DNA from: an uncultured Clostridia bacterium
Lineage (GTDB): Bacteria; Bacillota; Clostridia; Christensenellales; Borkfalkiaceae
Assembly (NCBI GenBank): GCA_947630605.1
Contig: CANRIO010000004.1
Span: 1 to 46,186 of the forward strand
Reading direction: 5' to 3'
DNA length: 46,186 bases
The translations under genes and the position numbers were made by a program. Every line of letters begins with the position of its first letter. Positions within the stretch are counted from its first letter, which is position 1. Positions 36,345 to 45,118 of the stretch are shown in pieces. Below the pieces are notes generated by a model. It was not told the DNA's origin, ran no database searches, and was given only the letters and a program-made list of their open reading frames with translations.

Positions 36345-37382
36345 TTATTCTGCCTGAAGCGCTGTGATGGCCACCGCGCAGACGATGTCCGAAGGCTTGC
36401 AGCCGCGGGAGAGGTCGTTGAGGGGCTTTGCAAAGCCCTGGCAGATGGGGCCGATGGCCTGGAAGCCGCCGAGGCGTTCCGCGATCTTATACCCGATGTT
36501 GCCCGACTGCAGATCGGGGAAGATGAGAACGTTTGCGTGACCCGCGACCTCGGACATGGGTGCCTTCAATTTCGCCACCTCGGGGACGATCGCCGCGTCG
36601 AACTGCAGTTCGCCGTCGAGTTTCAACTCGGGTGCCTGCTCCTTTGCGATGCGCGTTGCCTCCTGCACCAAGGTCACGTTGTCGTGCTTCGCACTGCCCA
36701 TCGTGGAGAAGGAGAGCATGGCGATGCGGGGCTCCACGCCCGCAATTTCTTTGGCGCTCTTCGCCGTCGCGATGGCGCACTCCGCGAGCCCTTCGGCGGT
36801 GTAGGTGGGGTTGAGGCCGCAGTCGGCAAAGACGAGGAGATCGTCCTCGCAATATTGGTTGCGGCCCACCATGAGGTTGAAGCTGGAGACCGCCTTCACG
36901 CCGGGAGCGGTCTTGATGATCTGAAGGCCGGGACGGAGGGTATTCGCCGTCGAATGGCATGCGCCCGAGACGAGCCCGTCCACGTCGCCGCTTTTTAGCA
37001 TGAGCGCGCCGAAGAAGGTGCTATCCTTTGCAAGCTCCAAAGCCTGTTCCTCGGTCATGCCCTTCGCCTTGCGCAGTTCATAGAGAAGATGTGCATATTC
37101 CTCAAGTTTGGGGGAAGTTGCGGGCTCGACGATCTCCACCTTGCTGAGGTCGACGTCGGGGTTCCGTGCCGCAATCTCTTCGGCATTGCCGAGAAGCACG
37201 ATGCGGGCGATGCCCTCTTCCACGCAGTCCGCCGCCGCCTCGACGACACGGCTGTCTTCGCCCTCACAGAGGACGATCTTCTTGTTCTTTTCGGCCGCCT
37301 TCTTCTTGATGGCCTGCACGACGGTGCCCGATTCCGAGATCTTCTGCATGGTCTTTTTCAAGGTCTTTACAAAACCTGCCAT
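36345..37382 (-). CDS. pta: Phosphate acetyltransferase
   Basis: VDGLVSGACHSTANTLRPGLQIIKT; DCGLNPTYTAEGLAECAI; SFSTMGSAKHDNV. Confidence 0.94.
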   Translation of the reverse strand: MAGFVKTLKKTMQKISESGTVVQAIKKKAAEKNKKIVLCEGEDSRVVEAAADCVEEGIARIVLLGNAEEIAARNPDVDLSKVEIVEPATSPKLEEYAHLLYELRKAKGMTEEQALELAKDSTFFGALMLKSGDVDGLVSGACHSTANTLRPGLQIIKTAPGVKAVSSFNLMVGRNQYCEDDLLVFADCGLNPTYTAEGLAECAIATAKSAKEIAGVEPRIAMLSFSTMGSAKHDNVTLVQEATRIAKEQAPELKLDGELQFDAAIVPEVAKLKAPMSEVAGHANVLIFPDLQSGNIGYKIAERLGGFQAIGPICQGFAKPLNDLSRGCKPSDIVCAVAITALQAE

Positions 37383-37504
37383 AAAAATTACTCCTGAAAT
37401 TCTTTATTTTTTCTTCCCAATCGTGTATAATGGTTGCGAAAGAAAGATATTTGCCATTATTATACACCTTCGGAAAAAAATTGTAAAGGAATCGCATGGA
37501 AAAG

Positions 37505-37528
37505 ATGAAAATTTGTGCCGTTGTTTGC
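37505..37528 (+). repeat. Left copy of 24-bp direct repeat flanking the type III TA
   Basis: ATGAAAATTTGTGCCGTTGTTTGC, identical to 38479-38502. Confidence 0.97.
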
Positions 37529-37533
37529 ACAAT

Positions 37534-37560
37534 AAAAAGGAGGGTCAAACCCTCTTTTTT
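37534..37560 (-). terminator. Terminator after toxN-like gene
   Basis: AAAAAGGAGGGT-CAA-ACCCTCTTTTTT. Confidence 0.75.
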
Positions 37561-37566
37561 CTCTGC

Positions 37567-38055
37567 TCAACGATACATAGTAGCTTTTTCTTCGAGCAAT
37601 TTGAAATCGCAGGTCACCCTGTCATAGTTCTCATAGAGCTTTCCCGTGAGCTTCAGGTTATATAACTTTTTCGCCTTGAGGATGATATACTTCTCGTGTT
37701 TTCTCAAAAAGATGACTTGCTTTTGCAAAAGGATCTTCTTTTTGGGGTTGGGTTCGTTTGCGATATCGAATGGCTCATAGACCCTTTTGATGACGGGGAT
37801 CATATTATTCAGATTGATCCCGCCCAACTTACATCCATCGATGGGGAAGAAAGTCGTACTCTCTTCCTTGGGTGCATCCTTGAGCTTTTTCCCTTTCCCG
37901 GAAGATGTCAGCGGTGCAAAATATTCTTTGTCCTGAACCTTCAAAAGAACACCTATGTAGGGCCGGACATATGTCCTGTCGATGTTGACGGAAACGCGTC
38001 CGTCGAACTGCCTCAGATAATCGGTGTATTTCTGCTCTATCCTGACGATCAGCAT
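37567..38055 (-). CDS. Type III TA endoribonuclease toxin, ToxN/AbiQ-like family
   Basis: YTDYLRQFDGRVSVNIDRTYVRPYIGVLLKVQDKEYFAPLTSSGKGKKLK...FPIDGCKLGGINLNNMIPV; start MLIVRIEQ preceded by GGAGGAGG; upstream terminator and tandem repeats as expected for type III TA. Confidence 0.87.
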   Translation of the reverse strand: MLIVRIEQKYTDYLRQFDGRVSVNIDRTYVRPYIGVLLKVQDKEYFAPLTSSGKGKKLKDAPKEESTTFFPIDGCKLGGINLNNMIPVIKRVYEPFDIANEPNPKKKILLQKQVIFLRKHEKYIILKAKKLYNLKLTGKLYENYDRVTCDFKLLEEKATMYR

Positions 38056-38076
38056 ACCTCCTCCTCTTCCAAAAGG

Positions 38077-38100
38077 AAAGGGCCGCAAGCGCGGCCCTTT
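38077..38100 (-). terminator. Terminator between antitoxin repeats and toxin
   Basis: AAAGGGCCGC-AAGC-GCGGCCCTTT perfect 10-bp stem; T-rich downstream on the minus strand. Confidence 0.88.
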
Positions 38101-38106
38101 TTTGGC

Positions 38107-38208
38107 TTCCACTACGGCAGGAACTCTCCGCTTGTTTTTTCGTTTCCACTATGGCAGGAACTCTCCATTTTTTTCCACTACGGCAGGAACTCTCCGCTTG
38201 TTTTCATG
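38107..38208 (-). ncRNA. Candidate type III antitoxin RNA (ToxI-like), three tandem repeats
   Basis: Three copies of TTCCACTA(C/T)GGCAGGAACTCTCC starting at 38107, 38144 and 38173, on the transcript upstream of toxN. Confidence 0.88.
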
Positions 38209-38237
38209 TTGCAGGGTCTTTCCTCCTCTGCATCATC

Positions 38238-38266
38238 ATTATAGCATACCTTATCATACCCGTCAA
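38238..38266 (-). promoter_or_regulatory. Promoter of type III TA locus
   Basis: Minus-strand TTGACG (38266-38261), 17-bp spacer, TATAAT (38243-38238). Confidence 0.85.
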
Positions 38267-38362
38267 GCTTTTGCGCCAAAATCATCAAACTTTTCTATTC
38301 TATAGTATGCGCTGCGTTTTCCCTTCGATACCCGAACGTTGACTTTTTTCGTTGCCGTTTGA

Positions 38363-38392
38363 GTTGACTTTTCGCGAGGATATGGTACAATA
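38363..38392 (+). promoter_or_regulatory. Putative promoter for tmcAL
   Basis: TTGACT-16 bp-TACAAT upstream of the tmcAL start. Confidence 0.55.
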
Positions 38393-38478
38393 AATGGCGG
38401 AATGCGAAAAAATCAATGTGAAAGGTTTGACCGGACAAACAGGACTGTTCGTGAGGAAAGCCTTTTTGTGGAGAACAT

Positions 38479-38502
38479 ATGAAAATTTGTGCCGTTGTTT
38501 GC
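38479..38502 (+). repeat. Right copy of 24-bp direct repeat (5' end of tmcAL)
   Basis: ATGAAAATTTGTGCCGTTGTTTGC, identical to 37505-37528. Confidence 0.97.
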
Positions 38503-39663
38503 GAATACAATCCCTTCCACAACGGGCATCTCTACCAGCTCCGGGAGATGAAGGAGCGGAGCGGGTGCCAAAAGCTCCTCTGTCTCATGAGCGGGAACTT
38601 CACCCAGCGGGGCGACATGGCGGTGTTCGACAAATACACGCGCGCAAGGCATGCCGTAGAAAACGGGGCGGACGCCGTTCTGGAGCTTCCCGTCTCCTTT
38701 GCCGTTTCCCCCGCCGAACTCTTTGCCAAGGGTGCTGTAAAACTTCTTGCCGCCATTCCCGCCGTAAAGGTGCTCGCTTTCGGCTGTGAGAGCGGAAACA
38801 GGGAGGACTTCATGAAGACCGCCTCCGCCACCCTTCGCGAGGACAGGGCGTTCCGCGCCGCGCTCAAGGAAAACTTAAAGGACGGGACCTCCTACATCCG
38901 TGCGCGGACACAGACCCTTCTCTCCCTCAACGCCGACCTCGACGAGAAGCTCCTCTCCTCCCCGAATAATATCTTGGGCGTGGAATATTGCCGCGCGATC
39001 CTTGCCGAAAAGGCGGACATTGACCCCCTGCCCATTTTGAGGATCGGAGCCTCATTCGCGGACATGGTACCCAGAAAAGAGTTCTCCTCGGCAACTTCGC
39101 TGCGCGCAGCCATGGCAGACGGGAGTTTTTCCGCCCGCCGCGCCCTGAAGCGAAATATGCCCAAAAACGTCTATGAGGACGCCCTCGCCTTTCAGCCTAC
39201 CGCCTTCGAGGAAGCTCTCCTTTGCGCCCTGTATGCGGCAGAGGACGATGAGATCGCAAAGACTGCCGACTGCTCGGAGGGACTGGAAAACCGCCTGAAG
39301 GCGATGGTGCGCACAAATCCCGGGTATGAGGCCGCCCTCTCGAAGGTGGTGACAAAGCGCTACACCCGCGCCCGCATCAAGCGCGTCCTTTTGCAGAACT
39401 TTTTGAAGATCGGGCTGGACGAGGTGAAGGACTTCCTCGAAAGTCCCCTTTACCTGCGCACGCTCGCGCTCAGAAAGGAGGGTTCGGAGGAGATGCTCTC
39501 CGCCCTCTCGGAGGCGAAGTTCCCCCTCATCGTGCGCAAGAGCGACGCCGCCCTTCTCAAAAAGGACGCCCTCGCCTGCTTCGAAAAGGACAGGTTCGCA
39601 AACTCCCTCTATAGCCTTCTCACGCACAGCGCCCTCGGCGACTACGAGACGCTGTTTGTATAA
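38479..39663 (+). CDS. tmcAL: tRNA(Met) cytidine acetate ligase / YlbM-type nucleotidyltransferase
   Basis: MKICAVVCEYNPFHNGHLYQL, MSGNFTQRGDMAVFDKYTRARHAVENGADAVLELP. Confidence 0.92.
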   Translation: MKICAVVCEYNPFHNGHLYQLREMKERSGCQKLLCLMSGNFTQRGDMAVFDKYTRARHAVENGADAVLELPVSFAVSPAELFAKGAVKLLAAIPAVKVLAFGCESGNREDFMKTASATLREDRAFRAALKENLKDGTSYIRARTQTLLSLNADLDEKLLSSPNNILGVEYCRAILAEKADIDPLPILRIGASFADMVPRKEFSSATSLRAAMADGSFSARRALKRNMPKNVYEDALAFQPTAFEEALLCALYAAEDDEIAKTADCSEGLENRLKAMVRTNPGYEAALSKVVTKRYTRARIKRVLLQNFLKIGLDEVKDFLESPLYLRTLALRKEGSEEMLSALSEAKFPLIVRKSDAALLKKDALACFEKDRFANSLYSLLTHSALGDYETLFV

Positions 39664-41405: not shown

Positions 41406-42535
41406 TGCAAGACCCCCTCCGCGGCGGCATGCGCCGAAGAAAACGCCCACTGCAGGTTATAGCCGCCGCACTCGCCGTCCACGTTCAGGATCTCCCCCGC
41501 GAAGAAGAGGCCGGGCCGCTTCAGGCTCTGCAAGTTTTCGTCCGTCTCGAGAAGGGGGATGCCGCCCTTGGTGACCTGAGCGTTGGCAAACCCGCAGTCG
41601 CCGAGAACGGGCAATTGAAAGGCTTTCAGAAGTGAAATGAGGGTACCATGTCCGCCGTCTGCCCTCTTGGAAAGCGCTCTTCCGAGGCCGTTGGGGACGA
41701 TGCAGAGAAGGGATCCGCCGCTTGCCTTTAAGGCCTCCGAAAGCCTCTCCCTTCCGACGTCGGGCAAGAAATCTATCTCGAGCACGTCGCCCTTTTTTGC
41801 ATAGGAGGAGGCGCGGAAAACGGCGTCGCCCGAGACGCCGTCCTCGGTGAAGAGGACATCTCCGCGGCACGTAAAGCATATACTATCATTGTGAAGAACT
41901 TTTAAGCCCGCGTCCATGCGGATGCCCTTGAGCCCGCGAACGAGCGCTGCGTCGCTTTTGAGCCTTGTCAGTGCGGGAAAAAGGGGCGTCACGGTGTGGC
42001 CGAAACTCTTCGCAAGCGCGTAGGCGGAACCGTCCGTCCCGAAGTGCGGCGCGGCCTTTCCTCCCGCTGCCAAAACGACTGCGTCTGCCCGCACATGTCC
42101 GCCCGCCCATAAAAGGTCGAATGCGCCGTCATATGCGATCTCCTGCACCTGCGTCTTGAGACATATGTCCGCATGCAGCTTTTCGAGTTCGGCGCGGAAG
42201 AGGTCGCAGACGGCCGAGGCCTGCCTGCCCGCGGGGTAGACTCTTCCCCGCGCATCGGGCAAAAAGAGGCCACCCATGTCCTCGAGGAAGCGCACGGTTT
42301 CGGGATATCCGAAGCGGGCGAGGATGCGGCCGACCTTGTTTGGATCGTCCGAAAAATAGTGTTCCTGTGAACAGTTCACGTTGGTCACGTTCCCCTGCCC
42401 GTTGCCCGTTGCGGAGAGCTTGCGGCCGAGGCGTTCCCCACGCTCGAGGAGAATTACTTCCCTTCCCGCCCTCAAAAGTTGTACGGCGCACGCCATGCCC
42501 GACGCACCGCCGCCGATGACAGCAATTTTCTTCAT
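41399..42535 (-). CDS. BaiN/YhiN (HI0933-like) family FAD-dependent oxidoreductase
   Basis: IAVIGGGASGMACAVQLLRAG, LGRKLSATGNGQGNVTN, GEILNVDGECGGYNLQWAFSSAHAAAEG. Confidence 0.88.
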   Translation of the reverse strand: MKKIAVIGGGASGMACAVQLLRAGREVILLERGERLGRKLSATGNGQGNVTNVNCSQEHYFSDDPNKVGRILARFGYPETVRFLEDMGGLFLPDARGRVYPAGRQASAVCDLFRAELEKLHADICLKTQVQEIAYDGAFDLLWAGGHVRADAVVLAAGGKAAPHFGTDGSAYALAKSFGHTVTPLFPALTRLKSDAALVRGLKGIRMDAGLKVLHNDSICFTCRGDVLFTEDGVSGDAVFRASSYAKKGDVLEIDFLPDVGRERLSEALKASGGSLLCIVPNGLGRALSKRADGGHGTLISLLKAFQLPVLGDCGFANAQVTKGGIPLLETDENLQSLKRPGLFFAGEILNVDGECGGYNLQWAFSSAHAAAEGVLQC

Positions 42536-42622
42536 ATTCCTATCATAACGCAATCAAAAAAATTTGTCAATGGATTGACAGCCGCGCGAAATCGTGTTAC
42601 AATATTGCAAAGGAGAAAAAAG

Positions 42623-43810
42623 ATGCTCTACAATCTTCAATCTGTCGTTGATTTTTTTAAGAATAATCCCGTCCTCGTCGGCGTTCTTGCGGCCATCCTC
42701 GCGGTCATCATCGCCCTCATCATCGCGATCATCGTCCTGCAGGTGAAGGGGAAAAAGCGCCGCGCCGAGGAGGAAGCGCAAAGAGCGGCAGCGGCCGAGG
42801 CCCCCGATGAGGAGCCGGAGCCCTACTCGCCCGAAGAGACACCCGTCGCCTCGGAGGAAGTTCCCGAGAAGGAACCTTTGCCCGAACCTGTCGTCGTGGA
42901 ACAAGCCCCCGAGAAGGAACCTTTGCCCGAACCTGTGGAGGAAGTCCCCGAAGAGGAGCCTCTGCCCGAGCCCGTGGAAGAAGCCCCCGAAGAGGAGCCT
43001 CTGCCCGAGCCCGTGGAAGAAGCCCCCGTCGAGAGGCCTCTGCCCGAACCCGTGGAGGAAGTTCCCGAAGAGGAACCCCTGCCCGAGCCCGTGGAGGAAG
43101 TTCCCGAGGAGGAACCTTTGCCCGAGCCTGTGGAGGAAGTTCCCGAGAAGAAACCTTTGCCCGAGCCTGTAGAAGAGATCAAGGAAAAGCCCGCGCCCTA
43201 CGCGGATGTTCATAGGAAGGAGGAATTACCCATGAAGAAAGCACAAAAAACCGCGCCCAAGCCCGCGCCCGCGAAGAAGGGATCGCTCGTCTTTAAGCCC
43301 ACTCCCAAGAATGCTCCCGCGAAGCCGGACGCAAAGCCCGTGCCCGTGAAGAAAGAGGTCCCCGCAAAGCCTACGCCCGTGAAGAAGGAGGCGCCTGCAA
43401 AGCCCGCTCCCGTAAAGGCACCCGCGAAGGCCGCGAAACCCGCTCCCGCACCCGCGCCCGCGAAGAAGGAAGTTTCCGCCGTCAACGGCAAGTGGACCAT
43501 CGAGAACGTGAAGGGCAAGTTCTGGTTCAGCCTCATCGCCCCCAACGGGCAGGTCATGTTAGAGAGCTCCGCCCCCTACGCGACGCTTTCGAGCGCGAAG
43601 ACGGGTATCAAGACCTATCAGGACAACATCGCCGCCGACCACCTCGAGATCGTCGAGCACAAGAACGGCGACAGCCAGGTGCAGATCCTGAACGGCAGCG
43701 GCAGACTTCTTGCCACGAGCTCCACCTATTCGACGAGGAGCCAGGCGGAGAGCGCACGCGACTCCATCAAGCGTTGGGCTCCCACCGATGCGGTCGAAGA
43801 TCCCGACTAA
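42623..43810 (+). CDS. Membrane-anchored protein with Pro/Glu tandem repeats, Pro/Ala/Lys-rich linker and C-terminal DUF1508 (YegP-like) repeats
   Basis: AAAGGAG RBS then MLYNLQSVVDFF; TM helix; (PEEEPLPEPVEEx)n; C-terminal NGKWTIENVKGKFWFSLIAPNGQVMLESSAPYATLSSAKTGIKTY. Confidence 0.75.
   Translation: MLYNLQSVVDFFKNNPVLVGVLAAILAVIIALIIAIIVLQVKGKKRRAEEEAQRAAAAEAPDEEPEPYSPEETPVASEEVPEKEPLPEPVVVEQAPEKEPLPEPVEEVPEEEPLPEPVEEAPEEEPLPEPVEEAPVERPLPEPVEEVPEEEPLPEPVEEVPEEEPLPEPVEEVPEKKPLPEPVEEIKEKPAPYADVHRKEELPMKKAQKTAPKPAPAKKGSLVFKPTPKNAPAKPDAKPVPVKKEVPAKPTPVKKEAPAKPAPVKAPAKAAKPAPAPAPAKKEVSAVNGKWTIENVKGKFWFSLIAPNGQVMLESSAPYATLSSAKTGIKTYQDNIAADHLEIVEHKNGDSQVQILNGSGRLLATSSTYSTRSQAESARDSIKRWAPTDAVEDPD
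42858..43180 (+). repeat. ~39-bp tandem repeats coding for Pro/Glu-rich units
   Basis: Repeated CCCGAAGAGGAGCCTCTGCCCGAGCCCGTGGAAGAAG with variants, about eight units. Confidence 0.85.
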
Positions 43811-44831: not shown

Positions 44832-45080
44832 GTGCTGTGATAGGTGGGGAGTTAGCGGTGCCCTGTATCTGCAATCCGCTATAGCAGAGCCGAACGCTTT
44901 TCTCGGTGCAGTCTATGGAAGGCCGCACGCGGTAAGTGGTGTTGATCACAAGGTCTTATGCAACGTACGCCCGCGAACCGTGTCAGGGTAGGGATACAGC
45001 AGCACTAAACGGTGCCGTGCGTGTGCCATGAGGTAGCTTTGTGGGAGCTGTCTGCCGCGTTCCCGCTTCGGTAGATTGCA
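44832..45080 (+). ncRNA. ffs: Bacterial large-type signal recognition particle RNA
   Basis: GGTGGGGAGTTAGCGGTGCCCTGTATCTGCAATCCGCTATAGC ... GAACCGTGTCAGGG ... CAGCAGCACTAA ... GTGCCATGAGGTAGC; promoter TTGCAA-17-TATACT. Ends approximate. Confidence 0.9.
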
Positions 45081-45118
45081 ACAAAAAAAGCCCTCACAGT
45101 TTTTTATTTCTGGGAAAA

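Follow-up and report, generated by a model that had tools for sequence, protein, structure and literature searches.

Organization of the locus

The window, which is the whole stretch of DNA analysed (46,186 nucleotides), belongs to a metagenome-assembled genome (G000) that is 74% complete; the material compared with it is likewise metagenome-assembled. The features of the locus are summarized in Table 1. Between the housekeeping gene pta and tmcAL, a tRNA-modification gene, lies a complete ToxIN-type toxin-antitoxin (TA) locus on the minus strand, bracketed by two copies of the perfect 24-bp direct repeat ATGAAAATTTGTGCCGTTGTTTGC placed 974 bp apart. Copy A stands on the pta side and copy B forms the present start of tmcAL. 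No further copy with three or fewer mismatches occurs in the window (none expected from shuffled sequences) or in the 1.34-Mb draft genome. A preliminary description had reported a perfect repeat around the TA locus, with its second copy at the tmcAL start and no recombinase between the copies; the sequence search bore out the repeat, and the interval does lack a recombinase. An assembly artefact is judged unlikely, given how short the repeat is, the 46-kb length of the contig and the presence of the same layout in other genomes. The ribosome binding site before copy B, GGAGAAC, resembles GGAGGCAC, the sequence that precedes copy B in two other genomes (G223 and G247). Elsewhere in the window, a long open reading frame containing several EEPLPEPVEE-like units and a stretch rich in lysine, proline and alanine was observed at 42479-43810, and Rfam identified a 6S RNA (1343-1524) and a large SRP RNA (44835-45099).

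Table 1. Features of the pta-tmcAL region in G000 (positions are those of the window).
Feature	Position	Strand	Evidence or remark
pta	36345..37382	-	PF01515, 1.5e-123; housekeeping flank; adjoins tmcAL in 89 empty congener loci
Original pta/tmcAL intergenic region, including what was formerly upstream of tmcAL	37383..37504	.	96.7% identity to the G249 empty site
Copy A, former tmcAL start, 8 codons, attL-like	37505..37528	+	Follows the ancestral upstream sequence without a break in G249 and G009
Short hairpin, readable as a terminator in both directions	37534..37560	.	z -4.3 (plus), -2.7 (minus)
toxN, type III toxin (stop codon included)	37567..38055	-	PF13958, 4.6e-38, 131 bits against a cut-off of 25
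Hairpin between toxI and toxN, in terminator position	38071..38103	-	Fold of 38060-38104, minus strand: -23 kcal/mol, z -2.7
toxI, three 29-nt units	38107..38201	-	38107-38135, 38144-38172, 38173-38201
Predicted toxI promoter, TTGACG-17-TATAAT	38238..38266	-	Promoter scan, 11/12
Predicted new tmcAL promoter, TTGACT-16-TACAAT	38363..38395	+	Probable integrase-gene relic, in-frame VDFSRGYGTIN
New ribosome binding site, GGAGAAC, upstream of copy B	38470..38476	+	Sequence; similar to GGAGGCAC
Copy B, present tmcAL start, attR-like	38479..38502	+	Repeat search
tmcAL, intact	38479..39663	+	PF05636, 6e-111

The toxin-antitoxin module

The nearest solved structures to the toxin are ToxN (PDB 2xd0, 9.7e-22) and AbiQ (4glk, 1.7e-15). 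The hairpin between toxI and toxN was missed by the terminator scan, and its T run is broken. Each toxI unit can be folded as an H-type pseudoknot; the pairs are 100% standard with one compensatory change among only two distinct rows, which is weak structural support for the predicted fold. By its toxin domain, tandem repeats, hairpin and single predicted promoter the locus is assigned to the ToxIN/AbiQ family of type III systems (PMC5086642; PDB 2xd0, 4ato, 4glk), which it resembles in the ToxN domain, the pseudoknot-forming repeats upstream of it, the terminator-like hairpin and the one promoter. No structural departure from that family was seen; only the genomic setting is unusual. The same ToxN was found neither in the 103 congeners outside G000 nor in viral contigs or GTDB genomes; the pattern-based searches of the collections, made with back-translated peptides, reach close relatives only. 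The ToxN loci of four genomes (G024, G239, G115 and G323), considered as counterparts, are all located away from tmcAL. An Rfam scan near the locus gave only weak, irrelevant matches.

Comparison with related genomes

The comparison set consisted of 103 genomes of the genus, 97 of which contain tmcAL. At 89 readable congener loci, pta and tmcAL lie side by side in divergent orientation with a short gap between them, a single start of the 24-mer type, no insert and no TA locus. The nearest sister genome, G249 (SH-aLRT 99 in the pta+tmcAL tree), has such an empty site, which runs straight into tmcAL. Its upstream sequence matches that before copy A in G000. The former start of tmcAL is therefore copy A, severed after the eighth codon, and the body of the gene is now joined to copy B. 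The preliminary description had proposed an insertion at the tmcAL start by way of an att-like 24-mer, with the start regenerated and a replacement promoter supplied, and had named empty sites as the comparison of interest; the congeners support this part of it. Larger gaps in G232, G028 and G260 were considered as insertions, and look native or correspond to differences in the pta start. G007 has two tmcAL copies, each adjoining pta, on contigs C16 (L021) and C15 (L084); contamination of this bin is 3%.

Other insertions at the same point were found in at least six lineages besides G000. A fewest-changes count on the pta+tmcAL tree gives at least seven changes between filled and empty states; because several branches are weak, the claim is limited to the number of lineages, with no exact count of events. 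Contig C13 of G025 carries pta and a copy of the tmcAL start, followed by over 12 kb of sequence that includes phage replication genes, and is a prophage. On C14 of the same bin the pta-tmcAL site is empty (C13 and C14 being L088 and L100), so C13 may derive from a co-binned relative; the two contigs probably represent such relatives. The insert of G223 consists of a phage left-end gene and a C-terminal remnant of a tyrosine integrase, and in G247 an integrase gene lies directly upstream of tmcAL as a 305-aa frame, intact up to the contig end that cuts it. A RelE toxin is paired with an HTH antitoxin in the inserts of G220 and G253, and G230 and G233 carry scars without recognisable cargo. The four compact scar types differ in how far from tmcAL they end and have unlike filler.

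In G220, all 24 bases of copy A agree with the empty site of a near relative, G237, and copy B differs at 9 of 24 and is chromosomal from codon 9 on; by this comparison the exchanged segment is the same 24 bp that is repeated in G000. The two copies differ at 5-9 of 24 bases in the other insertions where this was counted, and at none in G000. G237 (L071), G220 (L102) and G253 (L124) are near-equally related, with the RelE/HTH insert in two of them and a cleanly empty site in G237; precise loss, recombinational replacement or two separate gains would each fit. In G253, hardly any of copy A survives between pta and the RelE insert, while the insert and copy B are kept.

The duplicated start is thus seen in relatives without ToxIN, where it encloses a prophage, integrase genes, another type of TA locus or nothing; the preliminary description had itself named such a finding as one that would refute it. 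The proposal of the preliminary description that the TA cassette is itself the mobile unit is therefore wrong or unproven, and the TA locus is most likely residual cargo at the attachment site of a phage family.

Phage attachment site and integrase

An unintegrated phage, IMG/VR contig IMGVR_UViG_3300006145_000172 (L129), carries the end of an integrase gene followed, after about 90 bp and a ribosome binding site, by ATGAAGATATGTGCAGTAATTTGCGAA. This corresponds to the first nine codons of tmcAL, continues into phage sequence and constitutes an attP with the same core, beside the integrase gene. The integrase of G247 is 72% identical to that of L129. A search showed that L129 shares its left-end gene with contig C13 of G025, and shared replication genes were judged by eye. 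On this sequence evidence the 24-mer serves the phage as attB and is no feature peculiar to the TA locus. A small antitoxin-like open reading frame (Phd/YefM-like by eye) was observed at 8115-8492 of L129, on the strand opposite to the left-end gene.

The exact 24-mer was found in none of the viral contigs; nine of the ten looser matches there lie inside other sequence and are attributed to chance. Among 18 helicase-related phage contigs the tmcAL-type attP occurs only in L129 itself, and the integrases of four others are 34-37% identical. Behind integrases of about 35% identity in G140, G148, G159 and two viral contigs no tmcAL-like start was seen. ToxIN lies next to the attP in no phage of the L129 family seen here. 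No literature on tmcAL or ylbM as an attB was found.

The predicted replacement promoter of tmcAL

The scars carry GTTGACWTTTYNCR-N7-GNTACAATAAW before copy B. The same stretch is found within the phage integrase gene and within that of G247, encoding VDFLQK(S/T)VTI in both, and the G220 scar matches the phage integrase gene at 87.5% over 40 nt (E 9e-8). The pattern is present in six of the 103 genomes, always at the tmcAL site. Because it had been drawn from these sequences, the test was repeated without G000. A matrix built from the other six scored 27 bits at position 38356, against at most 15 in the rest of the window and a next best of 17.2 bits in 705 kb. The corresponding G000-free pattern recovered the G000 site with two mismatches, and no more than five off-target sites in the 103 genomes were as good. 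The integrase reading frame is kept in all (VDFLQKSVTIN, VDISRKHGTIK, VDFSRGYGTIN), and the resemblance of the G000 and scar promoters to the integrase-internal stretch extends over spacing, sequence and frame. The promoter of G000 diverges more than any other in the set, and part of the match can be put down to promoter consensus; beyond the att core and the promoter stretch, no significant similarity of the G000 insert to the phage was found. The evidence for an origin of the G000 promoter as an integrase relic is good but falls short of proof, and this promoter should drive tmcAL.

Origin of the insertion

The G000 locus is probably a decayed prophage that kept its TA locus and a promoter from inside its integrase gene; it is regarded as a remnant and not as an intact prophage because the integrase gene is absent from the att site. 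Genome comparison shows, at sequence level, a shared attachment site with its attP, empty sites and repeated integration; the G000 insert itself probably came from the L129-type phage family. The first eight codons of tmcAL would serve as attB for a family of temperate phages that integrate by means of a tyrosine integrase and whose attP mimics these codons behind a ribosome binding site of its own. Integration would sever the native start, leaving it as copy A, and copy B would supply tmcAL with a phage-borne start, ribosome binding site and promoter. In G000 the element would have entered once the lineage had separated from that of G249, and would since have shed almost all of its content, keeping the ToxIN locus and the integrase-internal promoter. 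During decay, deletions that took this promoter would silence tmcAL and those that removed the TA locus would be costly, so that both would remain. ToxIN may have persisted because the loss of an addiction or anti-phage module is costly.

The age of the insertion bears on how this decay proceeded. G000 and G249 differ at 41 of 199 four-fold sites in tmcAL and at 29 of 177 in pta, so the identical copies of G000, if identical at the start, speak for an insertion after the G249 split. It looks young for something so decayed, and either one or two large deletions or a compact arrival would explain why almost no phage is left.

A compact arrival would mean a non-autonomous cassette of attL, ToxIN, promoter and attR, excised and integrated in trans by the tmcAL-specific integrase of a helper phage. 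The apparent youth of the insertion, the lack of a recombinase inside it and the occurrence of two different TA types in similar compact inserts are in keeping with such a cassette. This origin is nevertheless unlikely, since the same ToxN was not recovered from the congeners, viral contigs and GTDB genomes searched, the differing end distances and unlike filler of the four scar types are those expected of separate deletions, and a search of the 74% complete genome for a phage-type integrase gave a single match, which is Xer-like. The wider proposition that TA modules travel as integrase-less tmcAL-start cassettes with an integrase-derived promoter, moved in trans by tmcAL-specific phages, is likewise unlikely; were it true, the promoter in each cassette would keep the target gene on.

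Little of the G000 insert matches the known phage and promoters share consensus hexamers, as would be the case had some other element, either an IME or an unrelated phage, used the same attB and come to resemble the integrase gene at its promoter by convergence. The leave-one-out promoter tests and the conserved integrase reading frame speak against this, and we regard it as quite improbable. A replication error that doubled the tmcAL start, with the TA locus captured by end joining at microhomology, would leave two identical copies around unrelated filler, but is very improbable given at least six other lineages with an insertion and the same duplication, integrase sequence beside two of the insertions and a phage that carries the attP.

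Precedents and implications

The promoter arrangement of the decayed prophage has a counterpart in SpyCIM5 of Streptococcus pyogenes Manfredo, a phage-like island at the 5' end of mutL in which a cryptic promoter, mapped inside an int pseudogene, is held to drive the downstream mutL (PMC3430984). Common to both are an integrase element at the 5' end of a housekeeping gene and a promoter within a broken int or, in G000, its probable relic. In SpyCIM5 the island is still present with its broken int, whereas in G000 the target is tmcAL, the element is less than 1 kb with a TA locus, and the same outcome is seen in several lineages; promoter use was mapped in SpyCIM5 and is predicted from a sequence match in G000. 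The promoter-rescue half of the proposed mechanism thus has a mapped precedent, and the TA-retention half is what we infer. Decayed ('grounded') prophages with retained cargo have been described (PMC6379469). They share with G000 the loss of phage functions and the keeping of selected remnants, and differ in that the G000 remnants would include a promoter needed by a host gene, tmcAL depending on it because integration removed its own.

In this genus, phages have repeatedly used the first codons of tmcAL for attachment, and TA pairs may persist longer than the phages by which they arrived. An integrase-internal phage promoter may have become the promoter of a housekeeping gene in about four separate scars. 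This recurrence opens the way to testing whether promoter rescue from integrase relics generally follows when elements integrate at the starts of genes.
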